Shown here piece after piece: positions 25,617 to 59,306 of a stretch of 64,000 nucleotides of DNA. The translations under genes and the position numbers were made by a program. The stretch comes from Eubacterium sp. (GTDB taxonomy: Bacteria > Bacillota > Clostridia > Lachnospirales > Lachnospiraceae). The stretch is taken from the NCBI GenBank assembly GCA_017480495.1, contig JAFVAQ010000029.1, forward strand, positions 18,964 through 82,963, read 5' to 3'. Numbering within the stretch: the first letter of the stretch is position 1; each line of letters begins with the position of its first letter. Under the pieces are notes generated by a model. It did not search any database. It saw nothing but the letters and a program-made list of their open reading frames with translations, and was not told the origin of the DNA.

Positions 25617-25689
25617 TGAGTATATAGGGACGGTTCTTATTTACTCACTTTTTGAAAGTGAGTAAATAAGAACCGTCCCTATATACTCA
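25617..25689. repeat. GGGACGG palindrome, copy A
   Basis: Perfect 35-bp inverted arms (25617-25651 and 25655-25689) with a 3-base loop. Each arm begins with a 31-bp unit TGAGTATATA-GGGACGGTTCT-TATTTACTCA, itself self-complementary at its ends. A decayed half copy lies at 25592-25608. The element sits downstream of the PAS-GGDEF-EAL gene. No T-run follows the stem, so it is not a classical terminator, though it could slow polymerase. Confidence 0.9.
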
Positions 25690-25710
25690 TATACTCATTC
25701 ATTAATCTTA

Positions 25711-28700
25711 TTAATTTACTTCGTAGAAGCCCTTTGCCATTCTCTGTTCAAAGTCTTCGACAGGAAGTGGTCTATCAAAGAGGAAGCCCTGAGCATAGAA
25801 GCAATTATTTTTTCTAAGAATTTCAAGCTGTCTCTCATTTTCTACACCCTCAACTATACAGTCAATACCCATTTCATTAACCATAGCTATAACATTTCTA
25901 AACATTATGCTATTAATGCTGGTAGGTGTGTCATCCTCTGTAGGAAGGAAGCTCTTATCCACTTTCAGCACATTCCATGGGAGTTCACGAATAAGATTCA
26001 GTGAAGAATAACCCATACCGAAATCATCCACGGAAGTGTAGATGCCCACGCTTTGAAGTCCATTAACGACTCTCTTTATATCAGCAAAGCTCACGTCTGT
26101 TGTTGTTTCTGTAAGCTCGACCTCTATACAGCTATGTGGAATATTATGCCTATCTATAATCTTGAGAAGTGCATCCACAAGACTACTGTTATGCATATGC
26201 TTACGCGACAGATTGACAGATATACGAATAGCTGTCATACCCTGATCCAGCCATCTTCTGATATCTCTACATACATGATCAAACATATAGAAATCAAGCG
26301 TACAGATATCATCGGTTTCTTCCAGCATTGGGATGAAGTCCCCTGGACTGATCATCTTTCCTTCATGGAACCAGCGGCAGAGCGCCTCCGCTCCAATTAT
26401 CCTACCAGTTTCAGTATGAACCTTTGGCTGATAATATACTTTGAATTCTTCATTCCTAATTGCCTCTGGGAACATTCTCTGAACATTCATAGATTGTTCT
26501 CTATTTGCAACTAAGGAATCATCAAAGAATACTACTTTCTCATTTCCACCAGCTTTGGCATTAAAGAAGGCTATCGTTGTCTTTTCCAGGATAATTCCCG
26601 GATCTTGCAGTTTTTCATTCTTAGGCAAACGATACACTCCAACTGTACAGCTAATATTAACTGACTTTCCATTTTTAGAATCATATATTACTGGCGTTTC
26701 TCTTAGATAGGTAAAAACATTTCCCATCTTCTGGTATCCAAAGATAGCCATAAAATTATCTCCGCCCAGACGAACCAGTTTACCGTCCTTGCCAATAATC
26801 TCCTTGAGTCCCTCATAGTGGCGTCTAATAACCTTATCACCCATAACTCGCCCAAGTTCCTGATTGACAAGAATAAAATGTAATAGATTGTATCTAATAG
26901 CTATCATGCCATTTAGACGGTCTCTATTCTGCATTAAATAGCTCATATAATTTCTCTGATTTTCATATCCAAAATCATCAAAATAAGCCAGTTCATAAAC
27001 CATGTCCTTTAGTCTGTTTCTTGTCACATAGCTAAGAACCGTTCTCATAGTGAGTCCAACGTACCATTTTTCTTCTTCGGCAAGAGGCGTCTCATCCTTA
27101 GACATATAGACTCTCATAACACCAATTGACATCACGCTCGTAACAACTCTGAAGCTTATTATCTCTTCACCATCCACACCTGTATCATAACAACTAAGCG
27201 TTTCTCCAATTCCCTGAGCCTCGTCTTTTGGATTTTTATAAAGTCTGGTTACCGCCTTGGAGAGCCTGAACATACTACAGATTTCTACAAGTATATTCTC
27301 TATCTCCGGAGTTTTTGCCTCTATACTAGCCTTGAAATCTGTCATAAGTGAAACGAGCTTTATAAAAAGCTCATAAAATCTCGTCTTTTGATCATCACTT
27401 TGTGTAGTTAAGAATCTATCCGCCTTTGTGGTATCACTTTTATCTAGAAGGGCTCTAAGCGACTTCTTGTTGACAATCATCGCCTTCTGAGCACGTTCAT
27501 AAACATCCTGAACCTTCATATCTCTATCTGGCTTATATTCAGAGATTCCGTAGGCTACGGTAGCTTTCGCATTATCTTTGTTAAAGAGCTGCTGAGCCAC
27601 CAGCTTATCTATATAGCTACCCCTGTCCTCATACTTGTCCTCCATCAGGATAATACAGAATTCATCTCCGCCAACCCTATATATATCCACATCGGTGAAA
27701 ACACTTTTTAGCAGATCCGCTGCTTCATTTATATAATTATCTCCCGCTTTTATTCCCCGCTTATCATTAATATCGCGGAGCCCATTTATATCACAAACAA
27801 CTACAGCAAATTTCAAATTTTTTTCTTCATATATTGCATTATCTATTCTCATTTCATTTTGAACATAGAAATGCTTATTATAGAGTCCTGTTAGCGGATC
27901 ACGATTTGATAGATTAACCCCTCCACCAAATTTTTGTTCAAATTCAAGTTCCTTACGTTTTGCGAAATCAATATTTGCAACAGCAATAATGATATGGTTT
28001 GAATCCATCATAGGACGAACTGCAAATAGCGCCATATAGAGAGGTTCACCATCAATGATAAGTCTATAGCTAAGAAAAAGCTTGCCGCTCTCTTCGAGAT
28101 TCTTCATAAGCTTCGTCTTATCCATAGCAACAGACATCATATGCAAATCGTCTGGATGAATCTCATTTCTCATTCTATTCTGAGTATCAATGAAGAAATC
28201 TTTTCCTTTTCCACCCTCTTCAAGCTTTGTGAGATCCTTCGAAGAAAAATACTCCGTGTATTCATTTGTTTCAACATCAACACAGTAGATTACCTCGTAA
28301 CGTTGAGCCAGAGCAATTGCCACTTCATTAAACAGCTGGCTATCAGGCAATACGCTAGCTTCATTTCTAGCCTGTGTGTCCACATTACGCACAGCAATAA
28401 CAAGATGCTCTTCATCTGTTCCTTGCTTTATCGCAAATAAACTGACATATCTCATCTCGTCATTTACCATTTGTCTATATACTGTGGAATAACTATTTGA
28501 AGTTTTAAGGGTATTAAGAAGATTGGTTCGCTCCAATTCGAAGAGAAGCATTTCTCTATCTTCAGGATATATATGCTTCTCTATATCAGTTTGGAGATTA
28601 AGAAAGAAATCATCTCCTTCTTCACCCATGTTAAGATTGGAGAAATACTCACTGGAATAGTACTCTATATAATGTCCCGTCTGAATATCTATGTAATAGA

Positions 28701-29175
28701 TAACCTCAAACATACTGCCTAGGGACTTTGCAATTTCAGCATAAATAGTATTCTTCTCATTATCTTTCTGCTGACGACGAACAACATTATCGATATTTTG
28801 AACACCGATTACAATATCCCCATTGCTCATCATCATTGATTTCAGAGAGAAATAGATAGGCTTATTATCAATATTCAGTCTATATCTAAGACCAAAGGAA
28901 TCACCATTTTCCAGAGCCTTGATTACATTTTCCTTCTTAAACGTCCTAAGAAAGAGGCTCTGGTCCTCTGGCCATACCATTTTCCTACAGTTGATTACAG
29001 TATCTGCATAGAAGTCATCTCCAGAAGAAACAATAACCAGCTCTTTTTCCGCTCCTGATGCACTATATTCGACATAGCTGTCATCCTCTGATTTAATAAG
29101 ATAGATACTCTCATAATCGTTTGCCAGAGCTGACGCCAAATCTGAAAACGTAGTTTTTACTCCATCATTCCCCAT
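25711..29175 (-). CDS. triple PAS-like sensor / GGDEF / degenerate GGDEF / EAL cyclic di-GMP protein
   Basis: 1154 residues, no transmembrane segment. Three related PAS-like modules (about 10-130, 145-270, 285-410) share the pattern IY...Y.EY...GDDFF...PED and end in ..NID or NVD. GGDEF domain 1 (430-570) has an intact RVGGDEF without the RxxD inhibitory site. A GAF-like segment (595-740) follows. GGDEF domain 2 (745-890) has GGDNF, probably inactive. The EAL domain (905-1145) retains EALCRW, VNLSR, ELTE, DDFGMGYSS, LKVDKSF, EGVE and AQGF, so it should hydrolyse cyclic di-GMP. Both synthesis and breakdown are therefore possible in one protein. GGAGGG ribosome site. Confidence 0.9.
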   Translation of the reverse strand: MGNDGVKTTFSDLASALANDYESIYLIKSEDDSYVEYSASGAEKELVIVSSGDDFYADTVINCRKMVWPEDQSLFLRTFKKENVIKALENGDSFGLRYRLNIDNKPIYFSLKSMMMSNGDIVIGVQNIDNVVRRQQKDNEKNTIYAEIAKSLGSMFEVIYYIDIQTGHYIEYYSSEYFSNLNMGEEGDDFFLNLQTDIEKHIYPEDREMLLFELERTNLLNTLKTSNSYSTVYRQMVNDEMRYVSLFAIKQGTDEEHLVIAVRNVDTQARNEASVLPDSQLFNEVAIALAQRYEVIYCVDVETNEYTEYFSSKDLTKLEEGGKGKDFFIDTQNRMRNEIHPDDLHMMSVAMDKTKLMKNLEESGKLFLSYRLIIDGEPLYMALFAVRPMMDSNHIIIAVANIDFAKRKELEFEQKFGGGVNLSNRDPLTGLYNKHFYVQNEMRIDNAIYEEKNLKFAVVVCDINGLRDINDKRGIKAGDNYINEAADLLKSVFTDVDIYRVGGDEFCIILMEDKYEDRGSYIDKLVAQQLFNKDNAKATVAYGISEYKPDRDMKVQDVYERAQKAMIVNKKSLRALLDKSDTTKADRFLTTQSDDQKTRFYELFIKLVSLMTDFKASIEAKTPEIENILVEICSMFRLSKAVTRLYKNPKDEAQGIGETLSCYDTGVDGEEIISFRVVTSVMSIGVMRVYMSKDETPLAEEEKWYVGLTMRTVLSYVTRNRLKDMVYELAYFDDFGYENQRNYMSYLMQNRDRLNGMIAIRYNLLHFILVNQELGRVMGDKVIRRHYEGLKEIIGKDGKLVRLGGDNFMAIFGYQKMGNVFTYLRETPVIYDSKNGKSVNISCTVGVYRLPKNEKLQDPGIILEKTTIAFFNAKAGGNEKVVFFDDSLVANREQSMNVQRMFPEAIRNEEFKVYYQPKVHTETGRIIGAEALCRWFHEGKMISPGDFIPMLEETDDICTLDFYMFDHVCRDIRRWLDQGMTAIRISVNLSRKHMHNSSLVDALLKIIDRHNIPHSCIEVELTETTTDVSFADIKRVVNGLQSVGIYTSVDDFGMGYSSLNLIRELPWNVLKVDKSFLPTEDDTPTSINSIMFRNVIAMVNEMGIDCIVEGVENERQLEILRKNNCFYAQGFLFDRPLPVEDFEQRMAKGFYEVN

Positions 29176-29220
29176 TTAAGTCCCTCCGTTTATCATTTAT
29201 GCAAATAATATAAATGCTTA

Positions 29221-29931
29221 TCAGCCTATATTACTAACAATCCCGACTGATACATAATTATCTATAATTGCGGCAAGATCTGTTCCCTCAGTAGCTTCCC
29301 ACTTTCTATGAACAGAGATCATAAAGCTCCTAACCCCATCCTCTATGGTCTCTATATCATAATCATCGTGATAGAAATCATCTGTCGAAACAGCGCGGTC
29401 TCTCAGAACACCCTTACATTCCTCCAGCTTGCAATCCGGGAAGTTGATATTCCAGACCTTTCCAGCCCCCAGAGGCTTAGACATACACTCCACCATCAGT
29501 TCGTCTATATACCTCTTGACTACCTCTGAATTATCTGGATTCCCCTGTGAAAATGCTATGGACTGAACCCCATAGAAAATGCCTTCCATAGCTGCCCCAA
29601 GGGTACCAGAATATTGTATATCCCATGACATATTGAAGCCGGAATTAATGCCGGCAAAAACAAAGTCCGGTTTTTCAGGCAATAGCTTTATTATTCCAAT
29701 CCTTACACAATCCGCAGGGGTACCGCTACATGTATAAGCCTTTACCCCCTCCATTTGAAAGTCATAATCCTTCACAAGTACCGGTTTATTAAAGGTAAAA
29801 CAATGAGACATTGCGCTCCTCTGTCCATCTGGAGCAACTATCCAAACCTCACCATGTTTTCTTGCCGTATCTGCCAGCAATCTAAGACCTGGCGCATCTA
29901 TTCCGTCATCATTAGATATAAGTATTTTCAA
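29221..29931 (-). CDS. surE: 5'/3'-nucleotidase SurE
   Basis: 236 residues. Metal ligands are visible: ISNDDGIDAPG (D8, D9), the SAMSHC region, SGTPADCV and FAGINSGFNMS. SurE enzymes dephosphorylate nucleoside monophosphates. The start is TTG with GAGG nine bases upstream; no ATG is available before the conserved motif. It lies 45 bp before the GGDEF/EAL gene start, so the two may be co-transcribed. Confidence 0.92.
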   Translation of the reverse strand: MKILISNDDGIDAPGLRLLADTARKHGEVWIVAPDGQRSAMSHCFTFNKPVLVKDYDFQMEGVKAYTCSGTPADCVRIGIIKLLPEKPDFVFAGINSGFNMSWDIQYSGTLGAAMEGIFYGVQSIAFSQGNPDNSEVVKRYIDELMVECMSKPLGAGKVWNINFPDCKLEECKGVLRDRAVSTDDFYHDDYDIETIEDGVRSFMISVHRKWEATEGTDLAAIIDNYVSVGIVSNIG

Positions 29932-30111
29932 TTGTGAAAACCTCGATTTCTTCGGTAGTCACCTGTCACCACCATATAATTTCCAATTATAATATATCCC
30001 TAACAAATTAAGGTTCTATAACATATTCAATATTTTAACATTATTTAGGCATAATAGCACTATTTATTCCAATTTGTCGTTTATTAAAAAATTTTGTATA
30101 TATAGAAGCTA

Positions 30112-32773
30112 TTATTTCTTAGCGAGATACTCTGTAGCAAACTGGATTTTTGTAACATTAAACCCGTCTTCAAGAGGGTAAATGAAAAATGTATCATCCA
30201 TTGTCGACAGTGTAACACACTGTCCCTTACCTCTATAGTCATACTCTGTATGAATCGATATAGTAGACTTCGGTGCAAAATGAAGAGTTTCCATCTTGTC
30301 AGTTCTGTAATTATAAAAGGTCAGATCAAAACCATTTAGATTATGAACCAGTCGTCCTTCTCCACAATCAACAAAATTGAAGGAGTTCGGCAAAGCCTCT
30401 ATCTTGACTCGTATATCTAAGCCATATTCACCTGCATCTATCTCTTCGTTAACACATTCTCTTTCCCAGTCATACCAGTCAGGAATGTAGAGCTCATCCC
30501 CCTTGTCACTTAACAGAAATTCTTGCGAACTCTTCTTATGTAACGTGCCCAGCTCATCCATCTCAAAACCCACACCACAGAAATCACATTTTATCTCTGC
30601 TCCTGTAGTTATCATTTTGAATTCCTTGCCACAGCATATACATTTATAAAGCGGCAGATGAAGTCCCTCAGCTCTGAAGTCATCCGCTATCACCATATTA
30701 TTGTCACGCTGGTATCTATATTCATCATAGTCCAAACTCTCGGTTAGTATCTTATGAATATCCTGAACACTCTGCTGCTTTGTATCCTCCGTACTAAGGA
30801 CGCAGGTCACATCCGCATGAAGCTTCACCGACTTCCTTTCCTTCAGATTCCATATAGGAGACATTAGATAGTTTCCCTGCATATTAACCGTCACAACAGG
30901 AACCTTAAGGAGTTTAACGAGCTTCGCAACTGATAGTGGAATCTCAGATGGAGTTCCGACATTTGCATATCTTGCTTCCGGGTAGATAACCATGATACCC
31001 TTTCGTTTAATCACCTTTCTGATATTTTTGATAAGCGCCTGATCATTGATGAACTTTCTGGTTCCGAGACAGCCCACCTGTCTGTATATCCACTCACCAA
31101 AATTCTCGAAGCCCTCCAGTTCAGATATATAATTCGCCCTATAAGGTGCGAGACAGAGTGGAGTCACATAGAAGTCCGTGAAGGACTGGTGCGTACCCAA
31201 AACTAAAAATGGCGGCTTAATTCCTTCCATATTGTGTTTATCTATTTTTAGTTTGTTTTTCGACGTTAGTATCTTACAGATAAGAAGCATCAAAGGAAAG
31301 AGGAACAGATTCTGTTTAGGTGGAACCCTGTCCCTATCAAATGGTTTCTTATCTGGAACAACATAAGCATCTTTTCTAACATATCGTCTTATAGGCGCGA
31401 GCTTACACAGCAGATAATAAAGGATTCCCGTCACAAGGAACGAGCATCCCGTTGGAGTCAGAACAAAGAGCACTGGTATATGAACCACGCCCTTGATCGG
31501 ATTGTATATAAGAAGGGAAAGAATAAAGCCCACCGCCAGGCAAACTATTCCAACTATATTGAAACCCTTCGTATAATCATAGGAATGATGACCCTCCAGT
31601 CCGTAAGCACTTCTTAGATCAAGTTTCTGCTTTCTTACCAGGAAGAAGTCAACTACCAGAAGCGCTGCCAGCGGCGCATAAACAAGTGCCCCTATGGTCA
31701 GGAAGCTTCCAAAATATTCTGTTATCTTGCCCCATACACAGAGTGCTGTTACGTACGCCCCGAGAATCAGAATAAGCACTCTATAGGAAAGCTTCGGAAA
31801 TGTTGATTTCAGCATTACTCCATAGATATATGAACCTACTGCCTGAGTTCCGATATTTGCAAATGCAACGAGCAGAAGCGACGACAGTCCAAGTATTGGA
31901 GTCGAAAGTGTCGCCAGCATCATCGTTGGATCGTCGATCATTTCTCCTGTGACGTGATGCATAGCAATTGCCATAACCGCACCAACTACCACGAAGAAGG
32001 AACCCGCAAGTCCTTGTCCTAAAACCCCGGCATAGAAGCCGGACTTCTCAGACTTACATAGTCTTGGCACCTCTGCCATTCCACCAACAAGAGTTATTAC
32101 AAAAGCAAAGTTTGCTTCTATAGAAAGTATATAGTTTGTAGTCTGACTCACATCCCCCCTAAGCTCAGGCTTATAATTCCAGATAACATCCATCGGCACA
32201 GATGTAAAGCCAACAATTACAACCACAACTCCTACCAAAAGAAGTAGCGGAACAAGTATTCTCGTCGTCCACGTTATACTTCCTATACCTCTATAGGCGA
32301 TAAATGTACCAAGCACAACACAGGAGATACTAAGCACCAGATGTCCCCCCCGGAAAAAGTGATATACCAAAAAGTCCCAGAAGATTTTCCATTGAGTCCG
32401 CAAACAGTTCACAGCATACTGCGTACCAAGGGAAATTCACGAGAATAATAAGAATAGTTACAACATTTACCCCCTTAAAGCCAAAGACACTCCTAAGCCA
32501 TATCCAGATATCTATTCCATATCTAACTGATAAAATAACCGGAATCTGATATATAAGAAGCATGAAAAGGGCTGCAAAAAATGCCCCTATGATAAGTTGT
32601 TTAAAATTCACCAGCGTAGCCAGATAGGAACCCTGAGTATAACTCCAGGTTGCTATACAATAGCCCGAAAGCACTAGCAGCGCATCTATAAAACCATATT
32701 TTCTTTCTTTAGGGAGGACCGGATATGTACCAAAGTATACCTCCTGCTCTATTGCCTTTTCTACTTTATTCAT
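30112..32773 (-). pseudogene. NCS1 permease - PlsC acyltransferase - zinc ribbon fusion, frameshifted at a G7 tract
   Basis: Two overlapping frames make one gene. Frame 1 (from ATG 32773) encodes the first helices of an NCS1 (cytosine/thiamine-precursor type) permease and runs through LFGISLFPGG before hitting a stop. Frame 2 carries the rest of the permease (to about residue 465), a PlsC-like acyltransferase with GTHQSFTD (HX4D), YPEARYAN and a following MQGNYLMSP, then a zinc ribbon with CICC and CDFC, then a beta-rich tail; it ends at 30112. Reading six instead of seven G at minus-strand 32350-32344 restores FPGGHLVLSIS and one 886-residue protein. No N-terminal domain is missing. It may be a true frameshift, a phase-variable tract or a sequencing error. 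Confidence 0.8.
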
Positions 32774-33012
32774 TAAACCCATCCCCCTATAATCACAAGA
32801 ATAAGGCAGACCACTGCGAAAATGCCTGTCCATATGTAGTCCTTCTTCGTCATAGTAGGAATACCGGTTCTGATACCTCGATTGTCTATGTCATCCTTTA
32901 TGACATTTTCTTCGAGATATTCTATTCTTTTTTCCAGTTCGAGATCCTTTTCTTCTATATTATTTATATCTACTACTTTTTCTTCCATACCTTCTCTACA
33001 CTTTCCCTTCAC
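32773..33012 (-). CDS. small single-span membrane protein coupled to the permease fusion
   Basis: 79 residues from GTG 33012 (AGGAG 12 bases upstream) or 71 residues from ATG 32988. A charged, acidic coiled-coil-like stretch (EEKDLELEKRIEYLEENV) precedes one hydrophobic helix near the C-terminus (YIWTGIFAVVCLILVIIGG). Its stop codon overlaps the permease start as TAATG, a strong sign that it is translated and coupled. I do not recognise the family; a small accessory subunit of the permease is the natural guess. Confidence 0.65.
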   Translation of the reverse strand: MKGKCREGMEEKVVDINNIEEKDLELEKRIEYLEENVIKDDIDNRGIRTGIPTMTKKDYIWTGIFAVVCLILVIIGGWV

Positions 33013-33157
33013 TTACTAAAAACTTCTCCTTAATTATCAAGGTAATACAGTGACTCCATTGTATAAAACTATTCATACTTATTCAATCAAATGGGAGTTG
33101 TGCAAAGTGCACAAAAAAGATTGTGAGGTTTTTTGTTCACAGAAAATACACATTCGC

Positions 33158-33186
33158 TTGCGATTATGAACAGATAGAACTATAAT
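33158..33186 (+). promoter_or_regulatory. candidate sigma-A promoter of the prepilin gene
   Basis: TTGCGA (33158-33163), a 17-base spacer and TATAAT (33181-33186). It lies about 100 bp before the prepilin start and overlaps the first half-site of the operator array. A second possible -10 (TATATT, 33243-33248) lies after the array. Confidence 0.6.
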
Positions 33187-33241
33187 GTGAACAAAATATG
33201 AACGAGTTGTAAACAGATTTAAAACTTTTTGTGAACATGTT
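33187..33241 (+). promoter_or_regulatory. tandem 11-bp operator array (GTGAACA-type half-sites)
   Basis: Five consecutive 11-bp units begin GTGAACA, ATGAACG, GTAAACA, a degenerate TAAAACT and GTGAACA at 33187, 33198, 33209, 33220 and 33231. A further half-site in phase, ATGAACA, lies 21 bp upstream at 33166, and an inverted one at 33134-33140. The 11-bp direct-repeat period is typical of OmpR/PhoB-family response regulators, which bind as head-to-tail dimers. Confidence 0.65.
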
Positions 33242-33292
33242 TTATATTTTAAACATCAAAATGACATTTTTTATCTTGGGAGGGAATAAAGA

Positions 33293-33979
33293 ATGGAAGA
33301 AAGTGGAAGGAAACGTAACAATAAAGGTTTCTCACTTGTAGAACTGATAGTTGTTATCGCTATCATGTCAATACTTGCAATGGTAATAAGTATTGCCGTT
33401 ATCCATTATATGGAGAAGGCTCGTCAGGCAAAGGACGTATACCACGCAAGTCTTATTAAGGATGCGCTTAATGTATATCCATTTGCCAGTGATTTTCAGG
33501 GAAGAGACGTTTGGTACGAAGATCCTGTAACTCACGAAAAGGAACATTTCAGAAGAGGCTGGGTATATGTTGACAAGGACGAGGTAAGATGTTCTGATGC
33601 AAGTTGCGCTCTTGCAATGATTTATGCCGGACTTGTACATGTTAGCCCAGAAATGGAAGCAACACTTGCAGAACATGAAGAGAGTAATCCAGCATGGTTC
33701 CCAACTGGACCAGATGGAGACTACATTAGAAAATCAGACATTAACGAATATGTATTTAAGAATGATATCACGGTTCACGCAAGAAGAACCTGGAATACAT
33801 ATCAGCTGGATGTATATGTAGACGATCAGGGCGAACTGCATCTCGGAGCCAGTGCCTCCAACGCCCAAAGAGTCGGCGGTCACGAAAAGGATGAGAAAAC
33901 CGCAAGGCTCATGGCTCAAAAGCTCGGTTTCTATGACGCAAAGATCACACCAATCGGTGAACAGTATACAGGAAAATAA
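33293..33979 (+). CDS. type IV prepilin-like protein, orphan
   Basis: 228 residues. A short basic leader (ESGRKRNNKG) precedes FSLVELIVVIAIMSILAMV, the class III signal of type IV pilins, with the Glu at position 5 of the mature chain; a prepilin peptidase would cut after the Gly. The globular part (from about 45) has a Cys pair (CSDASC) that could form a disulfide. No pilus ATPase, PilC or peptidase gene is nearby. GGGAGGG ribosome site. One of only four full plus-strand genes in the window, set behind the 11-bp operator array. Confidence 0.88.
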   Translation: MEESGRKRNNKGFSLVELIVVIAIMSILAMVISIAVIHYMEKARQAKDVYHASLIKDALNVYPFASDFQGRDVWYEDPVTHEKEHFRRGWVYVDKDEVRCSDASCALAMIYAGLVHVSPEMEATLAEHEESNPAWFPTGPDGDYIRKSDINEYVFKNDITVHARRTWNTYQLDVYVDDQGELHLGASASNAQRVGGHEKDEKTARLMAQKLGFYDAKITPIGEQYTGK

Positions 33980-33999
33980 ATAAATTATAGCCACACCTT

Positions 34000-34045
34000 A
34001 AAAAATGTTGTCCTTTTACCTTATTGGTAAAGGACAACATTTTTT
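34000..34045. terminator. bidirectional terminator between prepilin and GTPase genes
   Basis: Complementary arms 34000-34020 and 34026-34045 (one bulged base) with A-runs on the left and T-runs on the right, so it can end transcription from both sides. The stop codon of the minus-strand GTPase gene lies in its loop. Confidence 0.9.
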
Positions 34046-36690: not shown

Positions 36691-36726
36691 ATAAAATATC
36701 GTCCTTGATTACATTTCCCTTTGACT

Positions 36727-38861: not shown

Positions 38862-38924
38862 TTCACCACCTGCATTTTTTTATTTAATATGCTTTTCCTG
38901 CAAGCAGGAACGCAGTTTGACTTT

Positions 38925-38968: not shown

Positions 38969-39036
38969 TCCTTTTCAAGAACTGTCCTCCCCATATTGTT
39001 ACAATTTCAGGAATCATTTGTAACACTTTATATAAC

Positions 39037-41040: not shown

Positions 41041-41112
41041 TTCGTCCCTTTTCAATTCACAGCATATATCTATAATTTATTCTCGAGACCGTTTTTGGAC
41101 CTCGGCTGATCA

Positions 41113-43644: not shown

Positions 43645-43671
43645 TTTTTTGCCTTTCTAGCTTAACGCGGT

Positions 43672-44427
43672 CTACCATCCCATAGTTTCCAAAAACTCTG
43701 ACAACTTAGCTCTACGTTCTTTAACATCATCTTCACCGTAGGCTGGCATTTCGTAGTCGCCTACAACTCCTCCGTCTCGAAGGTAGAGTACTCTTGTACC
43801 TCTGAGAGCTGTCTTGAGGTCATGAGTAACCATGACAATTGACTGACCGTTCTTATGTACTTCCGAGAAAATATCCAGTACATCTCTTGAAGATGCTGAG
43901 TTAAGCTGTCCTGTTGGCTCATCTGCGAAGAGTATCTTCGGATCATTTATTATGGCTCTTACGATTCCGACTCTCTGTGCTTCACCACCTGATAACTGGT
44001 TTGGATATTTCTTCCAGTCCTCTTCATTAAGTCCTACCTTCTTAAGCAGGTTCTTGGCTTTCTGAACAAGTTCAGGGGAATTCTTCTGAACAATGAGTGC
44101 ACCTGTAAGTACATTATCGAGGACTGTCTGATTTTCCAGAAGATATACACTCTGGAATACAAAGCCACAGTTACCTCTTCTAAATACTGCAAGCTCGTCA
44201 TTTGAGTAGTCCTGTATCTCCGTATCACCGAAGAAGACCTTTCCCATATTCGGCTTATCCATACCGGACAGCGCATAGAGAAGTGTTGACTTACCGGATC
44301 CTGACGAACCCATGATAACTGTGAAGTCTCCCTCTCTTATCTCCAAATCAAGGTTCTTTATAACATGCTGCTGCACTCCCCCGTTGGAAAATGATTTGCA
44401 AAGCTTTTCTGTTCTGAGAATACTCAT
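43672..44427 (-). CDS. ABC transporter ATP-binding protein (MacB/LolD-like)
   Basis: 251 residues. Walker A GSSGSGKST (39-47), signature LSGGEAQRVGIVRA, Walker B ILFADEPTGQLNS and the switch His in VTHDLKTA are intact. LolD/BceA-type proteins pair with FtsX permeases such as the next gene. Direct repeats of TTAAGAATTT type lie 94 bp upstream, suggesting response-regulator control. The likely operon is ATPase, permease, beta-lactamase-like protein. Confidence 0.94.
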   Translation of the reverse strand: MSILRTEKLCKSFSNGGVQQHVIKNLDLEIREGDFTVIMGSSGSGKSTLLYALSGMDKPNMGKVFFGDTEIQDYSNDELAVFRRGNCGFVFQSVYLLENQTVLDNVLTGALIVQKNSPELVQKAKNLLKKVGLNEEDWKKYPNQLSGGEAQRVGIVRAIINDPKILFADEPTGQLNSASSRDVLDIFSEVHKNGQSIVMVTHDLKTALRGTRVLYLRDGGVVGDYEMPAYGEDDVKERRAKLSEFLETMGW

Positions 44428-44520
44428 CGTTCTAACTCCTTTTTACCTATCAACAATTTTTTCATCTTATGGTTGTAGTATATATGGTTTCTTCCTAATC
44501 ATCTTTACCGAAGAATTATT

Positions 44521-44542
44521 AAATTCTTATCAAATTCTTAAC
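44521..44542 (-). promoter_or_regulatory. 11-bp direct repeats upstream of the ABC operon
   Basis: Two adjacent 11-bp units (GTTAAGAATTT and GATAAGAATTT on the minus strand) differ at two positions, with a weaker third copy following. Spacing fits an OmpR-family dimer. Similar TTAAG half-sites occur before the ABC exporter at 63834-63860. Confidence 0.5.
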
Positions 44543-44602
44543 TGGTTTAACATTTTCCAATCATATTCTTTGAAGGGGGTATGTGTAGATTTTGTTAAAA
44601 TG

Positions 44603-44632
44603 TTGACATTAATAGTAATATTCTAATATCAT
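44603..44632 (+). promoter_or_regulatory. candidate promoter of the second prepilin gene
   Basis: TTGACA (44603-44608), 18 bases, TATCAT (44627-44632), about 35 bp before the prepilin ATG. A strong AAAGGAG ribosome site follows. Confidence 0.55.
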
Positions 44633-44667
44633 AGTATTAATAAAATTAAGGAAAGGAGTGTGTAGAT

Positions 44668-45357
44668 ATGAAAAAGAATCGTGGATTTACATTGGTAGAG
44701 CTTATCGTTGTTTTAGTTATACTTGCGATACTTGCTGCCATACTTGTACCTGCCCTCCTTGGCTGGATAGATAAAGCAAATAGCCAGAAAGATATCGAAA
44801 AAGCAAAGGCTGCCATGACAGCTGCTCAGGCCGTATTCACTGAGGCTTATGGAAAAGATATGCCCGTAAAAAATAATAACGTTTTAGGGCTACCAGCCGA
44901 TTGCAAAGTTTATTCAGAGGATAATAATTATAGAGATATAAACTGCAAAGGAACCTATATAGAACAGCAAGTACATAATTATGTAGATGATGATCCTTAC
45001 ATATTCCTTGTTGCTGCCGGAAATAGTAAAGAAGGTTCAAACTCAACAAAGCACCAGCAATACACTATTCTATATGCAGTTTATGTTGCAGAAAAGGATT
45101 CCAGACCATACTATTATTATGATGGTAGATGGACCTATGAAAATGCTACGAATGTGAATATGATTATCAAGGACACAACCGCTAAATCCAACAGATTGGT
45201 TTATAATGGAGAAGAAGTAGATATTCAGTATTATATTATATGTAATAAAGAGAAGAGCGATTTAAAATCTATAAACGAGAGCAAAACAAGCTTTTGGGGC
45301 TATTTAAGAATTGTTCTTCCTAAGAAATATGGCGGAGAAGTATATAAACCTAAATAA
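44668..45357 (+). CDS. type IV prepilin-like protein, orphan (second copy)
   Basis: 229 residues. The leader KKNRG precedes FTLVELIVVLVILAILAAI with Glu at mature position 5, then a helix ending near residue 50 and a Tyr-rich globular domain. It has the same plan as the prepilin at 33293 but little similarity beyond the N-terminus. No assembly genes are adjacent. Its stop lies 7 bp before palindrome copy B, which separates it from the convergent diguanylate cyclase gene. Confidence 0.9.
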   Translation: MKKNRGFTLVELIVVLVILAILAAILVPALLGWIDKANSQKDIEKAKAAMTAAQAVFTEAYGKDMPVKNNNVLGLPADCKVYSEDNNYRDINCKGTYIEQQVHNYVDDDPYIFLVAAGNSKEGSNSTKHQQYTILYAVYVAEKDSRPYYYYDGRWTYENATNVNMIIKDTTAKSNRLVYNGEEVDIQYYIICNKEKSDLKSINESKTSFWGYLRIVLPKKYGGEVYKPK

Positions 45358-45363
45358 AAAATG

Positions 45364-45464
45364 TGAGTAAATAGGGACGGTTCTGTTTTACTCATTTTTA
45401 CTTAGTTATCGACTTATTTAATATTTACAAAAATGAGTAAAACAGAACCGTCCCTATTTACTCA
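45364..45464. repeat. GGGACGG palindrome, copy B
   Basis: Perfect 36-bp inverted arms (45364-45399 and 45429-45464) around a 29-base centre. The unit is TGAGTAAATA-GGGACGGTTCT-GTTTTACTCA, the GTTTT subtype. It fills the space between two convergent genes. Confidence 0.9.
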
Positions 45465-45475
45465 TATTTACTCAC

Positions 45476-46555
45476 TTATCCACGATATTTTGTATGACCA
45501 GGTTGTGAATAGTAATCTAATTTATCCTTATACATCATTTCATCTGATTTTTTCATTATCTCGTCTATATTTTTAATCTCCTCTGAACAGAAGCTATATC
45601 CTATAGCACAGCTATATTTTGTTTCAGAAACCTTACTACGAATATTTTCAACCAGCTGTTTTACTTCATCCTCAGATACGTGTTTACAAACTATAAGGAA
45701 CTCATCTCCACCTAGTCTATAAACTGAATCCTTAGACGTAGTCGCCTGCATAAAACAATATGCAAGTGTAGCCAGCGCTGTATCGCCCGCAGCATGCCCT
45801 TCTTTATCATTTATCTCTTTAAGTCCATTCATATCAATTGTTATAATTGCATTTATATCACTTATTTCATTTGTGACAGTAGCATAAAAAGACTGTCGAT
45901 TCAGAAGGCCTGTGAGCGCATCCTTTTCTGTCAGCTGAAGGATTGAGAATACGTAGTAAACAAAAAGCGCTATGGTTATTGTTACACAGAAGATGTGTGA
46001 ATAATCCCTTCCAAGTACAAACGGAAGTATTAGTCCCGATGTGAAAGAAAAACATAAGAATACAATTGGAAAGATTTCAGCAGGGCGTTTATTACTTCTC
46101 TTAACCAGCATATAAACAAGAAATACAGAATAAGCTCCTACCATTATGTAAGGCAGATAACCCAAAGGTCCTCTATCAAGCGTTCCGTCCTCCTCTAGAC
46201 TAAATACCACCCCAGTAAATATGGAAATAAGATCTATTATTAGAAGTATAAAGGCCGGTATAAAAATTGTCTTTTTAGCATTTTTAGCAAGTGTAAATAT
46301 TACAAATGCAATAATAAGAGGAGTCGCGCTATAACGAAGCGCCATCAGCGTGAGTCGCATTTCCGTCATTATATTCATATCCGCTAAAGCAAACTCCACA
46401 AAAACAATTTGAGAAAAAATGAAGAGTCCCAGAATAAGGGCATACAAACGAAGTATTGTTATCTTATCAAGGAAAACTGTTGTCTTAAGCAGAACTGCAA
46501 AAGCCAGCAATACCATGACGTTTGCCCAGTTTTGTATGATTAATTCTTTAATCAT
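45476..46555 (-). CDS. membrane diguanylate cyclase
   Basis: 359 residues from ATG 46555, preceded by AAGGATTT; an upstream ATG at 46576 has no ribosome site. About seven to eight hydrophobic helices (5-205) precede a GGDEF domain (215-350) with DALTGLLNRQSF, DMNGLKEINDKEGHAAGD and intact RLGGDEFLIV. No RxxD inhibitory site is evident. The protein is compact, and the helical region has no known ligand motif. It sits between palindrome copies B and C. Confidence 0.88.
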   Translation of the reverse strand: MIKELIIQNWANVMVLLAFAVLLKTTVFLDKITILRLYALILGLFIFSQIVFVEFALADMNIMTEMRLTLMALRYSATPLIIAFVIFTLAKNAKKTIFIPAFILLIIDLISIFTGVVFSLEEDGTLDRGPLGYLPYIMVGAYSVFLVYMLVKRSNKRPAEIFPIVFLCFSFTSGLILPFVLGRDYSHIFCVTITIALFVYYVFSILQLTEKDALTGLLNRQSFYATVTNEISDINAIITIDMNGLKEINDKEGHAAGDTALATLAYCFMQATTSKDSVYRLGGDEFLIVCKHVSEDEVKQLVENIRSKVSETKYSCAIGYSFCSEEIKNIDEIMKKSDEMMYKDKLDYYSQPGHTKYRG

Positions 46556-46587
46556 TCGCCCAAATCCTTTCCACATTTTTTCTGGAG

Positions 46588-46620
46588 TGAGTATATAGGG
46601 ACGGTTCTGTTTTACTCACT
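46588..46620. repeat. GGGACGG repeat, single unit, copy C
   Basis: A single 31-bp-type unit (TGAGTATATA-GGGACGGTTCT-GTTTTACTCA) plus a few bases, with AGTGAGTA and TACTCACT as self-complementary ends. It lies between the diguanylate cyclase and Hpt genes and lacks the partner arm seen in copies A, B and D2. Confidence 0.85.
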
Positions 46621-46630
46621 CTTTACTCCC

Positions 46631-46966
46631 TTAGAGATTACCCAGTTGTTCTTTTCTATCTAGTATGATTGAAAGGAGTTCTGTATAATCCATTTCCTTT
46701 CTAGCCCTTAGCAGCTCAGTTATTTCAACTATTGGATCATAGAGTGGAGTTAAGGCAAGGTTGCCTGTTATTCCTTTAAGTGCATGTGCCGCTTCAAAGG
46801 CAGCTCCCAGATCTCCAGCTTCTATACTATCCTTCAGTAAGTCAAAGCTTTTCTCTGAAGGTATTGTGGAAATAAGCCTAAGGTAAAGCTCTTCTTTACC
46901 CATACATCTTCCAAGTCCCTCTTCAACATTTGCACCATATTCCTTTAGCGTATCGATTGTTAGCAT
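46631..46966 (-). CDS. stand-alone Hpt phosphotransfer protein
   Basis: 111 residues, all helical. The Hpt motif AAHALKGITGNL carries the phosphoaccepting H61 with the usual following Lys-Gly. It starts one base after the stop of the REC-GGDEF-EAL gene, so the two are coupled. It would relay phosphate between a hybrid kinase receiver (two are encoded nearby) and the receiver of its operon partner. Confidence 0.92.
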   Translation of the reverse strand: MLTIDTLKEYGANVEEGLGRCMGKEELYLRLISTIPSEKSFDLLKDSIEAGDLGAAFEAAHALKGITGNLALTPLYDPIVEITELLRARKEMDYTELLSIILDRKEQLGNL

Positions 46967-46967
46967 T

Positions 46968-48656
46968 TTATACCTCTTGGTCTTTAAAAAATTTTGTAAA
47001 TTCTTCTGCCGGTACCGGCTTTGAGAAATAGTATCCCTGAATGATATCGCAGTTTCTTTCCTTAAGAAGCTTTAGCTGTTTCTCAGTCTCAACTCCTTCA
47101 GCGATGACAGGAACCTGAAGGAACTCAGCGATTTCAAGCACAAGCTCTACCAGCTTCATACTCTTCTTGTCCTTTTCCATATTGCGAACAAATTTCATAT
47201 CCAGCTTAAGTGCATCGATTGGAATAGATGTGATCATATTCAGTGATGAATACCCGGTTCCGAAATCGTCCATCTCAATCATGAAACCATATTCTCTAAG
47301 GTTCTCGACAACTTTAATCAATTCTTCTGCATTTTCAGAATATGCAGACTCAGTTATTTCAAGCATCAGTTCATTTGGCTCGAGGTCATTTTCTTTTAAT
47401 AACCTCATAAAGTTATCCCTAAGACCTGGGAAGTAAATGTCCATTCGAGATACATTTACCGAAACAGGCACAGAGACCCCATATTCCTTCTTCCAGATTC
47501 CCACCTGCTTTGCAGCTTCTTCCCACACATAGCGGTCCAACCTTTGAATAAGTCCGTTGCTTTCAAAAAGAGGGATAAAATCTCCAGGACTAATCATTCC
47601 TAGTTCTGGATGTATCCATCTAATAAGCGCTTCTGCACTTCTGAGTTTAGGCTCTTCACCGGTAACATCATACTTTGGCTGGAAGAAAACCTTAAGGTCC
47701 TTATTGCTTATAGCATCATCAATATCATTTATTAACTTTTCCTGATACTTAGCCTGTTCATAGAGTTCGTGGCTATAGTATTCAATATCCTTACTATAGT
47801 CGCCTCTTATCATATCACAGGCTGTTTTCGCTCTATCAAACCAGTTCTCAACCATTAGCGATTTATCTGCATCAGAGTATACTCCCATACGAAGTCGAAT
47901 ATTATTTGATTCCGAAATATCTGATAGCTCCCTAACAACCTTTTCAAGAACTCTCTTATGATCAGTAGCATGGTCGCAATATATGATGAAGTTATCTGCC
48001 TCAGAGCGACAGCTTATTCCAGATTGATCACTAAAATAATCCAGAAGGGACTTAGCAATGCTGATAAGAGCATTATCGCCCTCTTTCCTTCCATAGAGTT
48101 CATTTATCAAATGGAAATGATCTATATTGATATTAATAATATCAACCTTACGATCAGCCTTATACTTTTCAATCTGATTTATGTATTCAATGAAATATTC
48201 TCGGGAGTATAAACCGGTAAGAGTATCTCTCTCTGTATCATGAATGATATTCTTATCTTCCTGAAGCTCTATGATTCTTTCACATCTTGCTAAGATTACA
48301 TCCGGCATATCATATGGTTTGGTAATAAAATCTGCCGCTCCTAGCTTAATAGAACGAACCTCCGCATCCTTTTCAGATGTCATAACAATGATTGGGATTA
48401 GACGAAGCGATTCATCGTCTTTAAGATTTTTGATAAGTTCAAAACCGTCCATAATAGGCATAAGAAGATCCACAAGTATCAAGGAAAAACTACAATCTCC
48501 AGCCTTAAGAATATCCAGCGCTTCCTTACCATTTTCAGCAGCATGGACTTCGTACTCCGAACTCAAAATATTAGATAAGATTTCTCTGTTGATCATTTCA
48601 TCATCAACAACAAGAACGTGTCTTTTCAGACCGCTCAACCCCTTAAAAATATTCAT
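46968..48656 (-). CDS. response regulator: REC - degenerate GGDEF - EAL phosphodiesterase
   Basis: 562 residues from ATG 48656, which is better spaced from AAGGAG than the ATG at 48665. Receiver domain (10-125) with VDDE and D63 in LILVDLLMPIMDG. The GGDEF-like domain (140-290) has SEADNF instead of GGDEF, so it is likely inactive or regulatory. The EAL domain (310-555) keeps EALIRW, VNVSR, EITE, DDFGTGYSS, LKLDMKF, EGVE and IQGYYF. Phosphorylation should control cyclic di-GMP breakdown. Confidence 0.92.
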   Translation of the reverse strand: MNIFKGLSGLKRHVLVVDDEMINREILSNILSSEYEVHAAENGKEALDILKAGDCSFSLILVDLLMPIMDGFELIKNLKDDESLRLIPIIVMTSEKDAEVRSIKLGAADFITKPYDMPDVILARCERIIELQEDKNIIHDTERDTLTGLYSREYFIEYINQIEKYKADRKVDIININIDHFHLINELYGRKEGDNALISIAKSLLDYFSDQSGISCRSEADNFIIYCDHATDHKRVLEKVVRELSDISESNNIRLRMGVYSDADKSLMVENWFDRAKTACDMIRGDYSKDIEYYSHELYEQAKYQEKLINDIDDAISNKDLKVFFQPKYDVTGEEPKLRSAEALIRWIHPELGMISPGDFIPLFESNGLIQRLDRYVWEEAAKQVGIWKKEYGVSVPVSVNVSRMDIYFPGLRDNFMRLLKENDLEPNELMLEITESAYSENAEELIKVVENLREYGFMIEMDDFGTGYSSLNMITSIPIDALKLDMKFVRNMEKDKKSMKLVELVLEIAEFLQVPVIAEGVETEKQLKLLKERNCDIIQGYYFSKPVPAEEFTKFFKDQEV

Positions 48657-48812
48657 ATACCCCATTCTCCTTCTCTACTAACCCCTTAATAGAAAATCCT
48701 TATCTTTAAATATACCATAATAGACCTTTTATCACAATAAAGATGTAAATGCACCCGCTTATATGATATATTAAGAAATATAATGTATTAGTAGAATCGG
48801 GGGATTTACATT

Positions 48813-51800
48813 ATGAAAAAAGAGCGAATAAAAAATATCAAACCTTTATATATTATTATAGGCCTTCTAACTCTACTCTTTATACTTCTTGATTCTATAT
48901 ATCTTAGCTGGAAAGCCTCAAAGGACACTGAAGAAGCTGTCAGAAAGGTAAGTCATTTGTACCTTGATGAGCTGTCCGGAAGACGTGAGCAGGTTGTGGA
49001 AAACAATCTGAAAAGCAAGTTCGATGATATGAGAATTGCAATTGAACTTATGACTGACGAAGATAAAAGCGATGTGGAGCATTTGCAGGATTATCAAGCC
49101 AGAATGAAGAAGCTCTATAAGCTAGAAAAGTTTGCCTTCGTTGATACAAAAGGACTCATCTATACCGCTCTCGGCCCACAGGAAAATATAAGTGACTATT
49201 CTTTCGATTATAAGATTATTGATGAACCTGAAATATCTATACTTAATCTAGAAAGCACCGACAAAAAGGTGGTTCTAGCATATCCCGTTGATATCCCATT
49301 TAACGGCGATACTCTCAAGGTTTGTTTCATGGAAAAGGATATGGACGAAATGCTCTCAGGAGTTTCCATGGAACCCGCCAAAAATGGCACTACCTTCTGT
49401 AACATATATACGAATGATGGAATCGCTTTAACTGATACAATTCTAGGCGGTCTTGCTGTCGAGGATAACCTCCTGGATGCTATGAAAAATGCCAATTATG
49501 ACGACGGTTATTCCTACGAAGCCTTCAAGGAACAGTTTGAAAAAGGCGAACGTGGCGTAGTTTCCTTTACCTACAATGGTACAAAAGAAACCCTTAGCTA
49601 CGTGCCAGTCGAAGGAACAGATTGGAATCTTACATATCTCGTAAGGGAAAGTGTTATCAACGACGAGATAAGTTCAATTAATAAAAGTGTTGTTACACGA
49701 AGTATTGTACAAACTGTTATAACCGCTATTCTTCTGATCACCCTATTCGTCTTCATTATGTATCAAATGCAGAAAAACTCGAGAATGTTGATAGAAAAAG
49801 AAGCGGCTGAAATTGAAAACAGAACTCGCCAACAGGAAATGCAGGAAAAAATCGATCTTCAGGAAAAGCTTCTGGAAGAAGAAAGAACGCGTACCTTGCA
49901 GGATAGCCTTATTACTGCCATGGCTTCTGATTACAGAAGTGTATACTACGCTAACCTAGACGAAGATGACGCTGTATGTTATCGAAAGGATTCTAATGAT
50001 TCCGACAGTTCCCCAGAAGGAACACATTTCTGCTTCACCGAAAGATTTAACTACTATGCAGATAACTATGTTGCCGAAGAATATAGAGATGGATTTAAGG
50101 AATTTATAAAAATAGATAATATCAAAAAGAATCTTGAAGAAAGTCGTCTCATATCCTATAGATATTTGGTTAGACGCGATGGAAAAGAATTCTATGAAAT
50201 GCTCCGTATGGCGGGCGTTAGACTAATCGAGAATCGTACAGACCACATGATTCACGCCATTGGTGTCGGTTTCACAAATATTGATAAAGAAATGCGTGAC
50301 GAAATGGCGCGAAATGAAGCCCTTAGCGATGCTCTCGCAGTTGCTGATCAGGCAAACAAGGCGAAGACGGCATTTCTATCAAACATGAGTCACGAGATCA
50401 GAACACCTATGAACGCTATCATCGGACTTGATAGTATAGCATTAAACGATCCTGATATATCAGATAAGACTAGAGAATATCTAACCAAGATTGGCGATTC
50501 CGCTGACCACCTACTGGGACTAATAAATGATATCCTCGACATGTCCCGAATCGAATCCGGAAGGATGGGCATAAGGAACGAAGAATTCTCATTCCCTAAG
50601 CTACTCGAGTCACTCAATACATTAATCAGTTCACAGTGCCAGAACAAGGGAATTGATTACATTTGCCACGTAAGTGATGACATAAATGAATGCTATATCG
50701 GAGATGAGCTGAGACTTCGTCAGGTACTCCTCAACGTCCTTGGAAATGCAGTTAAATTCACAGACAAAGGAAGTGTAAGTCTAAATGTTAATAAGACTGC
50801 CTCTTATGACGGCAAGTCAACTCTTTGCTTTGAAATAAAGGATACTGGAATAGGTATGAGCGAGGAATTCCTACCTAACCTCTTCGATACATTTACCCAG
50901 GAGGACGAGTCAAGTACAAGTAAGTACGGTAGCTCCGGTCTTGGAATGGCTATCACAAAACGTATCGTCGATATGATGAACGGCCAGATTGAAGTTGAAT
51001 CTGAAAAGGGTAAGGGAACAACCTTTGATATCACGGTAACTCTTACCGACTGTGAGAAAGAAGTCAGTGAATATGAAGATATAGAGCTTCATCCAGATCA
51101 GATGAGCGTACTAATTATAGATGATGATGAGGTTGCCTGCGAGCATGCGAAGCTCGTTCTTGAGAAAACAGGTATATCCGCCGAGATAGCTCTGTCGGGT
51201 GAAGAAGCTATAGAAATGGTGCGTCTCCGCCACGCTAGGAGAACACCTTATAATCTAATTCTCGTCGACTGGAAAATGCCGGAAATGGACGGCGTTGAAA
51301 CCACAAGAAAGATCCGCGAAATTGTCGGAAATGAATCTGCCATCATTATACTAACTGCCTATAGATGGGATGATGTTCTTGAAGAAGCCCTTCAGGCGGG
51401 CGTTGACAGTTTCATACCTAAACCTGTTTTTGCAACAGTTGTTTTGGATGAATATAAATCCGCTATCAAGAAAAAGAATCCTGCCGAATTGGAAGAAGAA
51501 AAAGCCGAACTTTCAGGACGCAGAATCCTTCTTGCCGAAGACATGCAAGTAAATGCCGAAATAATGACCATGGTTCTCGAAATGAGAGATATGAAGGTGG
51601 AACTTGCCGAGAATGGTCGCATTGCTTTAGAAAAGTTTTCAGAAAGTGAGTCCGGTTATTATGATGCCGTCCTCATGGATATGAGAATGCCAGAAATGGA
51701 CGGCCTCGAAGCAACCAAACGAATAAGAGATCTTGACCGCGAGGATGCGAAGCAGATTCCAATCATCGCACTCACTGCAAATGCCTTTGACGAGGATGTA

Positions 51801-51893
51801 CAGCGCTCCCTCCAGGCCGGAATGAATGCACATTTATCAAAACCTGTAGAACCAGAACGTCTATACCAAACCCTCGAAGAACTTATAAAATGA
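48813..51893 (+). CDS. hybrid sensor histidine kinase with PAS and two receiver domains
   Basis: 1026 residues. Helix 10-32, an extracellular Cache-like sensor (35-290), helix 297-318, coiled coil (320-370), a PAS-like module (370-490) of the same kind as the three in the 1154-residue protein, HisKA with SNMSHEIRTP (H527), HATPase (630-745) with GNAVKFTD, KDTGIGM and GSSGLGMAI, then REC1 (D819 in LILVDWKMPEMDG) and REC2 (D956 in AVLMDMRMPEMDG). No Hpt domain is fused, so the separate Hpt protein is the obvious relay partner. It is divergent from that operon. Its TGA stop is the first triplet of palindrome copy D1. Confidence 0.93.
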   Translation: MKKERIKNIKPLYIIIGLLTLLFILLDSIYLSWKASKDTEEAVRKVSHLYLDELSGRREQVVENNLKSKFDDMRIAIELMTDEDKSDVEHLQDYQARMKKLYKLEKFAFVDTKGLIYTALGPQENISDYSFDYKIIDEPEISILNLESTDKKVVLAYPVDIPFNGDTLKVCFMEKDMDEMLSGVSMEPAKNGTTFCNIYTNDGIALTDTILGGLAVEDNLLDAMKNANYDDGYSYEAFKEQFEKGERGVVSFTYNGTKETLSYVPVEGTDWNLTYLVRESVINDEISSINKSVVTRSIVQTVITAILLITLFVFIMYQMQKNSRMLIEKEAAEIENRTRQQEMQEKIDLQEKLLEEERTRTLQDSLITAMASDYRSVYYANLDEDDAVCYRKDSNDSDSSPEGTHFCFTERFNYYADNYVAEEYRDGFKEFIKIDNIKKNLEESRLISYRYLVRRDGKEFYEMLRMAGVRLIENRTDHMIHAIGVGFTNIDKEMRDEMARNEALSDALAVADQANKAKTAFLSNMSHEIRTPMNAIIGLDSIALNDPDISDKTREYLTKIGDSADHLLGLINDILDMSRIESGRMGIRNEEFSFPKLLESLNTLISSQCQNKGIDYICHVSDDINECYIGDELRLRQVLLNVLGNAVKFTDKGSVSLNVNKTASYDGKSTLCFEIKDTGIGMSEEFLPNLFDTFTQEDESSTSKYGSSGLGMAITKRIVDMMNGQIEVESEKGKGTTFDITVTLTDCEKEVSEYEDIELHPDQMSVLIIDDDEVACEHAKLVLEKTGISAEIALSGEEAIEMVRLRHARRTPYNLILVDWKMPEMDGVETTRKIREIVGNESAIIILTAYRWDDVLEEALQAGVDSFIPKPVFATVVLDEYKSAIKKKNPAELEEEKAELSGRRILLAEDMQVNAEIMTMVLEMRDMKVELAENGRIALEKFSESESGYYDAVLMDMRMPEMDGLEATKRIRDLDREDAKQIPIIALTANAFDEDVQRSLQAGMNAHLSKPVEPERLYQTLEELIK

Positions 51894-51924
51894 GTATATA
51901 GGGACGGTTCTTATTTACTCACTT
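51891..51924. repeat. GGGACGG repeat, single unit, copy D1
   Basis: A single unit TGAGTATATA-GGGACGGTTCT-TATTTACTCA plus CTT. Its first three bases are the stop codon of the hybrid kinase gene. It lies 16 bp before copy D2 in direct orientation. Confidence 0.9.
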
Positions 51925-51939
51925 CAAAGTAAGTGATAA

Positions 51940-52013
51940 TGAGTATATGGGGACGGTTCTTATTTACTCACTTCAAAAAAAGTGAGTAAATAAGAACCGT
52001 CCCCATATACTCA
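51940..52013. repeat. GGGACGG palindrome, copy D2
   Basis: Perfect 34-bp arms (51940-51973 and 51980-52013) with a 6-base loop. The unit has one change from copies A and D1 (TATGGGGACGG for TATAGGGACGG), and the change is present in both arms, so the pair stays perfectly matched. Confidence 0.9.
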
Positions 52014-59284: not shown

Positions 59285-59306
59285 TACATTTTACAAATCT
59301 TGCAAA

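Follow-up and report, generated by a model that had tools for sequence, protein, structure and literature searches.

Intergenic hairpins of a Eubacterium genome as probable REP-like partners of RAYT-type Y1 nucleases

Repetitive extragenic palindromic (REP) sequences with a GTAG foot, known with their BIME and REPIN arrangements from E. coli, Pseudomonas and Stenotrophomonas, are short intergenic palindromes that also occur as inverted pairs; they flank a cognate REP-associated tyrosine transposase (RAYT) in inverted orientation, and several families, each with its own RAYT, may share a genome (available text of PMC2817692 and PMC8266576). We describe hairpins that resemble them in all these respects, starting from a 64,000-nucleotide stretch of a Eubacterium sp. 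genome (Lachnospiraceae; contig JAFVAQ010000029.1, positions 18,964 to 82,963), hereafter the window. Those of the window appear to form a single local family within a kind of repeat that is common in the phylum, each family being grouped around its own RAYT, and it is likely that they are non-autonomous REP-like elements spread by RAYT-type HuH/Y1 nucleases with a C-terminal helix-turn-helix (HTH), of the subclass 2.1/TIRYT kind.

Such genes, with their flanking repeats, are already known in outline. According to the available text of Quentin 2018 (PMC6006769), TnpAY1 subclass 2.1 (RAYT group 1) probably corresponds to the TIRYTs, further analysis being needed, and REP-like sequences were found neither automatically nor manually for subclasses 2.1 and 2.3. 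In the available text of Di Nocera 2013 (PMC3733652), TIRYTs and TIRtrons are Y1 genes flanked by terminal inverted repeats (TIRs) which, like the repeats reported here, are partly self-complementary and sometimes dimeric; the TIRs share GGGG[AT][CG]A[CG], some of them forming repeat families, and Firmicutes, Clostridi- and Desulf- have no mention in the main text as available. The same source reports CGTC REPs without a dedicated transposase. These are palindromes with a CGTC string, which we also find (CCGTCCC on the reverse strand); however, the string is a terminal unpaired tag there, while here it is central and RAYT-associated, and since it is central and not terminal our units are not CGTC REPs.

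The window carries eight 31-bp units of the form TGAGTAnAtr-GGGACGGTTCT-nnTTTACTCA, three inverted pairs and two singles, at four intergenic places. With one mismatch permitted, eight core matches were found against 0.31 expected from dinucleotide shuffles, and none of 100 shuffles reached eight. A first-pass annotation, made from the letters of the window, had listed near-identical units at four intergenic sites, and all eight copies are where it placed them. The first pair consists of a unit with TGAGTA/TACTCA arms (25617..25647, + strand) and its inverted partner (25659..25689, - strand); it is common to the window's own genome, G000, and to G012, the closest relative used, which lacks 8 bp at the right edge. 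Beside it lies a left half-unit in decayed form, TGAGTATATGGAGACAG (25592..25608, +), again as annotated, with two base differences at the same place in G012. The second pair is formed by 45364..45394 (+), where G012 has a single unit, and 45434..45464 (-), and a single unit at 46588..46618 (+) is common to G012. The last place holds three units in G000 and one in G012: a single unit at 51891..51921 (+) and a pair, 51940..51970 (+) and 51983..52013 (-), in which both units carry the same A-to-G variant. The prediction that a unit can fold alone also held: the folding energy as single-stranded DNA is -2.8 kcal/mol (z -3.4, and -3.2 for the opposite strand), which is weak and still better than most shuffles. 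At 51891, the first bases of the unit, TGA, form the stop codon of a 1027-codon open reading frame (ORF; 48813-51893); the relative G007 lacks this unit and has TAA at the aligned stop position, 51891-51893.

The search for further copies proposed with that annotation returned 77 exact cores in the 1.89-Mb, 65.6% complete assembly of G000 (41 on the + and 36 on the - strand), and none for the reversed pattern used as control. GAGTA arms stand on both sides of 47 cores and TGCAA-type arms beside 15; the other 15 cores have GAGCA, GTGAC, mosaic or other arms. Variation affects the arms, which change together as complementary pairs around a constant centre. A crude ORF call places 43 of 44 clusters of units between genes. 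Tandem arrays with an exact 31-bp period occur, and within the genus the number of cores per genome ranges from 0 to 150. It had also been claimed that the two arms of a pair always share the subtype: in the window the partners agree in 3/3 pairs, but genome-wide the 31-mers are identical in 10 of 20 inverted neighbours, compared with 7.6% of random unit pairs. In some mosaic units an TATGCAAATA arm is directly followed by a TGAGTA unit, or each type contributes one arm (L016 1460-1530, L040 4763-4794), which suggests insertion or exchange at the border between arm and centre. A strand bias of the core in the relative G002 was considered and rejected, the full 10-mer counts being 87 on each strand.

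Comparison with G012 shows that the units are mobile, as seen from reciprocal presence/absence sites, changes in unit number and arm differences. From 881 kb of G012, 12 of 45 clusters could be compared on both flanks. The 34-bp GTGAGTATATAGGGACGGTTCTTATTTACTCACT is present in G000 and cleanly absent from G012, with flanks 96-97% identical and no target duplication; reciprocally, a TGCAAA unit of G012 (L362) is absent from G000, with flanks 93-94% identical. The empty sites that the annotation had suggested looking for in close strains therefore exist in both genomes. In a REPIN the mobile unit is an inverted pair; both events here concern one core and not a pair, although inverted pairs are still common (20 in the genome). 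The exact-core number in G000 and G012, respectively, is 2 vs 1 at 45374, 3 vs 1 at 51901, 3 vs 4 at L017 and 1 vs 2 at L048, and at L029 and L016 TGAGTA-type arms in G000 stand at the same positions as TGCAAA-type arms in G012. Two other units found in G012 only are uninformative because their flanks have no match in G000, and L011 was rejected as an empty site: G012 lacks the exact core there, yet the centre alone differs. In L362 itself (4440-4510), an additional GGGAC/GTCCC pair lengthens the arms of a unit, which gives the impression of one unit nested in the centre of another.

Units with the window's arms flank a RAYT in a relative. In G034, one RAYT gene (L096) has TGAGTA-core-TACTCA units on both sides, and a second, paralogous RAYT (L097/L099) is flanked by TGCAAA-core units; between the two proteins, 12 of 140 residues are different in the catalytic domain and 36 of 106 elsewhere, and the recognition helices differ at positions 241, 243 and 244 (residues are numbered on the L096 RAYT throughout). 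The own genome encodes one RAYT (246 aa, Y1_Tnp), besides an IS200-type TnpA and an edge fragment. This RAYT and an XRE-type regulator (122 aa) lie between two 80-bp inverted dimers with halves GGGACGGTTCC and GGGACAGTCCC (L032 1047-2781), whose arm type is other than the window's. A Y1/HuH RAYT flanked by the same repeats, which defines a REP-RAYT system in the wide sense, is thus found in relatives, and in the own genome for the other arm type only. The annotation's suggestion of a Y1 transposase flanked by the same units was borne out in G034; the own assembly yielded no RAYT with TGAGTA arms, and the further suggestion that such an enzyme spreads the units is developed below as a probable mechanism. 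In L032 the RAYT and its regulator appear as if they were one 1.7-kb element, and in G012 (L098) the same RAYT (98.8%) and regulator (99.2%) lie between two such cores.

The association extends to other loci. Among the best 80 of 570 confirmed RAYT loci from named genomes, which were not deduplicated, the exact core GGGACGGTTC lies at most 600 bp from the gene in 45 (49 with close variants). Near RAYT genes 126 sites in 149 kb (0.84/kb) were counted, vs 52 in 424 kb (0.12/kb) beyond 1.5 kb, and the core was found at 0 of 19 IS200-type TnpA loci (56.6 kb, several of these from genomes with few cores). In 20 RAYT stretches of relatives, seven had no callable unit near the gene with up to two core mismatches permitted (L092, with one two-mismatch site, L093, L104, L105, L108, L109 and L110), and L095, L102 and L107 had only weak core sites near the RAYT. 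In G002, core dimers and GGGACAGGTCT variants are crowded around the RAYT (L091 2285-16345), more densely than elsewhere among the G002 sites listed.

By their motifs and C-terminal HTH these RAYTs match the TnpAY1 subclass 2.1/TIRYT type, an assignment at the level of motifs. Among 155 ORFs, NH.H was present in 149, H[LV]FQ in 132 and the Y motif in all 155, in line with the NHxH, FQ and Y--xNP motifs, the length of about 240-250 aa and the C-terminal HTH given for subclass 2.1 in the available text of PMC6006769. In the own RAYT the Pfam HTH_28 domain scores 20.7 bits, below the curated cut-off of 25 bits, and when PDB sequences were searched with an alignment of the RAYTs, nothing matched at 1e-5.

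The exact core was absent within 500 bp in 71 of 147 loci, most of which show the same plan with another centre. The general unit can be written as [variable palindromic arm]-[G/A]GGGAC-six bases-[arm'], inverted around the RAYT gene. A unit was called palindromic when five of six pairs formed at positions 3-8, the centre being left free, at most 500 bp from the gene; such a [GA]GGGAC unit is present at 112 of the 155 RAYT loci, unlike in the available text on subclass 2.1 (PMC6006769), where nothing REP-like is reported. The pass rate of [GA]GGGAC sites was 45% near the gene (513 sites), compared with 14% far from it (446), 11% inside ORFs (36) and 3.8% with shuffled arms. As to orientation, 206 of 231 units are inverted around the gene (111 upstream on +, 95 downstream on -; 13 and 12 opposite). 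The commonest centres are GGTTCT (52/112), GGGGTT (7) and GGTTCC (5). From a set of 89 loci (nine in addition to the best 80), one 31-mer could be taken at each of 50. The bases at arm positions 4-8 form pairs in 58-86% of these 50, vs 25-40% with shuffled partners, and 49 distinct left arms occur among them. Compared with TIRs, the commonest centre here is GGGACGGTTCT and the arms vary and co-vary; GGGG[AT][CG]A[CG] is matched where the centre starts with A after G (GGGGACAG), whereas the commonest centre (GGGGACGG or AGGGACGG) is at least one base off.

A sample of 398 genomes of the phylum included 281 with one exact core or more, and a RAYT of this type was found in 118 (E<=1e-30, at most six candidates scored per genome). 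With G000 excluded, at least ten cores are found in 79 of 397 genomes, and a RAYT is present in 62 of these 79 vs 55 of the remaining 318 (odds ratio 17.4 by Fisher's test, p 1.3e-24, tallied by hand from two tables and not corrected for relatedness). TIRs and TIRtrons, according to the available text of PMC3733652, occur together in a limited number of genomes with no obvious correlation, whereas here there is a strong association between core number and the presence of a RAYT.

The annotation had likened the family to REP/BIME elements, and in part this stands: the units are palindromic, multi-copy and intergenic, as classical REPs are. However, GT[AG]G was found at the hairpin foot in 0 of 77 units on either strand (shuffled foot mean 5.1), and because they have no GTAG foot the units are not classical GTAG REPs. 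They differ from these also in that the conserved part is internal, between variable arms.

Taking these observations together, we infer how a RAYT might mobilise the units, where it might cut and which part of the protein might read which base. In each unit, two short complementary arms enclose an asymmetric centre made up of GGGAC and six further bases (GGTTCT in this family), and on single-stranded DNA the unit would fold into a hairpin, in which the catalytic domain would read the GGGAC-centre and the C-terminal HTH the arm. The enzyme would then cut and rejoin the strand; in this way units would come to lie in 3' intergenic DNA, no target duplication being made, and single units would later give rise to tandem arrays or inverted pairs. 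When the specificity of a RAYT lineage shifts, the arms would change and the centre would mostly stay.

Host selection offers another account, in which the units are hairpins with a regulatory role, as bidirectional terminators or as stabilisers of mRNA 3' ends, and their link to RAYTs is incidental. Their neighbours would suit such a role, with 17 of 44 clusters between convergent genes, 23 between tandem and 2 between divergent ones (one overlapping an ORF), two having no right-hand gene in the stretch, and so would the core hairpin at L012, which is identical in G000 and G012. However, a 3' location is equally expected of tolerated insertions, and host regulation would hardly explain why RAYTs have inverted units on either side, why the arms change from family to family around a constant centre, why core counts within the genus run from 0 to 150, or why empty sites and arm replacements exist; we consider this account unlikely. 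Alternatively, recombination, slippage during replication and gene conversion at palindromes could account for most of the spread, a domesticated RAYT only binding the units. This would fit the arrays with an exact 31-bp period, the unit number that differs in 4 of 12 comparable clusters, the identical partners in half of the 20 inverted pairs and the genomes with many units in which no RAYT was found; yet the clean gain or loss of single units in collinear intergenic DNA and the dispersal over 44 clusters both need a mechanism that reaches new sites, and we regard spread of this kind as improbable. That the units are miniature inverted-repeat remnants of IS200/IS605 moved by an ordinary TnpA is barely credible: TnpA genes of that type are present in the same genomes, but the shared ends expected of such remnants are not seen, the 19 IS200-type TnpA loci (56.6 kb) having no core.

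Several observations weigh against spread by RAYTs. As said, the RAYT expected for TGAGTA arms was not found in the own genome, of which 65.6% is assembled. No RAYT of the type was found in G010, G016 and G020, which have 28-34 cores, their assemblies being incomplete or the RAYT having been lost; in the phylum sample, 17 of the 79 genomes with at least ten cores gave no RAYT at E<=1e-30 with up to six candidates scored in each. At 43 of the 155 RAYT loci the criterion used detects no palindromic unit. The clean presence/absence events are two only, from 12 comparable clusters and one reverse search, and assembly errors are possible at repeats because the close relative is a metagenome-assembled genome.

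A further question is whether the RAYT protein encodes the arm. Tentatively, and with somewhat less belief than doubt, we propose from sequence comparison that subclass 2.1 RAYTs could be two-module readers throughout the phylum, with the arm read by the C-terminal recognition helix and the centre beside GGGAC by the catalytic domain, through the residue after FQ. If this were true, the repeat would be predictable from the protein of each RAYT, and specificity would shift by helix substitution. Arm sequence suggestively tracks recognition-helix residues, a correspondence for which phylogeny may account. Among 99 nonredundant loci, the strongest associations link residue 243 to arm position -6 (Arg with C in 11/11, Phe with A in 5/5) and residue 239 to arm position -5 (Phe with A in 9/9); for the centre the strongest is residue 100, just after FQ, the centre starting with A in 10 of 11 loci with Glu there vs 5 of 88 with other residues. 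In the available text of PMC6006769, residues around W94, Q95 and R104 of E. coli TnpAREP are discussed for contact with the GTAG tag, and because these residues lie there residue 100 falls in the region expected to read the centre, FQ being equated with the WQ of TnpAREP by the motif table of that paper and not by structure.

Four arm rules were set after 45 nonredundant RAYTs and then tried on further, held-out loci. With exact-core units (28 held-out loci), FG.IR helices had CACA arms in 4/4 cases and STRQ..[LM]K helices ACCA arms in 5/5. With the general unit (66 nonredundant held-out loci), rule 1 held in 4/4 (background 2/62), rule 2 in 3/4 (2/62) and rule 3 in 3/3 (10/63), where the flank of one rule 1 locus (L248) had been seen before the rule was written and one rule 3 success (L302) depends on Met. 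Rules 3 and 4 were tested slightly broader than first set (Met in rule 3; AG[TA]C, TG[TA]C). Rule 4 (RG..QKA with TGTCA arms) failed, with 0/2 held-out loci, 0/1 after redundancy removal, and a background of 16/65.

The comparisons do not establish the HTH as sole reader of the arm: the nearest neighbour by HTH gave 0.687, compared with 0.727 by catalytic domain, 0.633 by linker and 0.457 at random, and when catalytic identity was capped below 0.5 HTH and catalytic neighbours (0.387 and 0.418) were both below the random level. Pairs of protein column and arm position with z>=8 numbered five in the HTH (240 tested) and eight in the catalytic domain (744 tested), the top two being in the HTH. 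Given catalytic identity, the partial correlation for pairs of at least 0.6 identity was -0.23 for the recognition helix, -0.03 for the linker and -0.11 for the first HTH part, and that of the recognition helix falls to -0.03 for pairs of 0.45-0.60 identity. Partial Mantel tests gave 6/1000 permutations for HTH given catalytic domain and 7/1000 for the reverse. Pairs that are independent on a tree of the catalytic domain agree but are too few, both for 243R with C-6 (1.7 same and 0.0 opposite of 6) and for 243 Q/E/K with G/T (4.1 same and 0.1 opposite of 7, median p 0.125). Taking into consideration the catalytic-domain pairs, the HTH being no better a neighbour predictor and the small number of independent pairs, we regard the arm code as a good hypothesis and not as a result.

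The palindromic-arm/constant-centre plan, the abundance in the phylum, the link to RAYT presence and the correspondence of arm and helix appear to be new as judged from the open-licence matches listed, among which no description of the family was found. The subclass that is the largest among RAYTs in the published survey would gain a repeat partner, and REP-like populations are present in the phylum, in 79 of 397 sampled genomes at the level of at least ten cores. Centre and arms vary separately in this natural series, and Y1 recognition and spread of a repeat can therefore be tested with pairs of protein and repeat. Elsewhere in the window, a ZMP/ZTP riboswitch (12648-12735, - strand) and a TPP riboswitch (59291-59397, - strand) both score above the Rfam gathering threshold.

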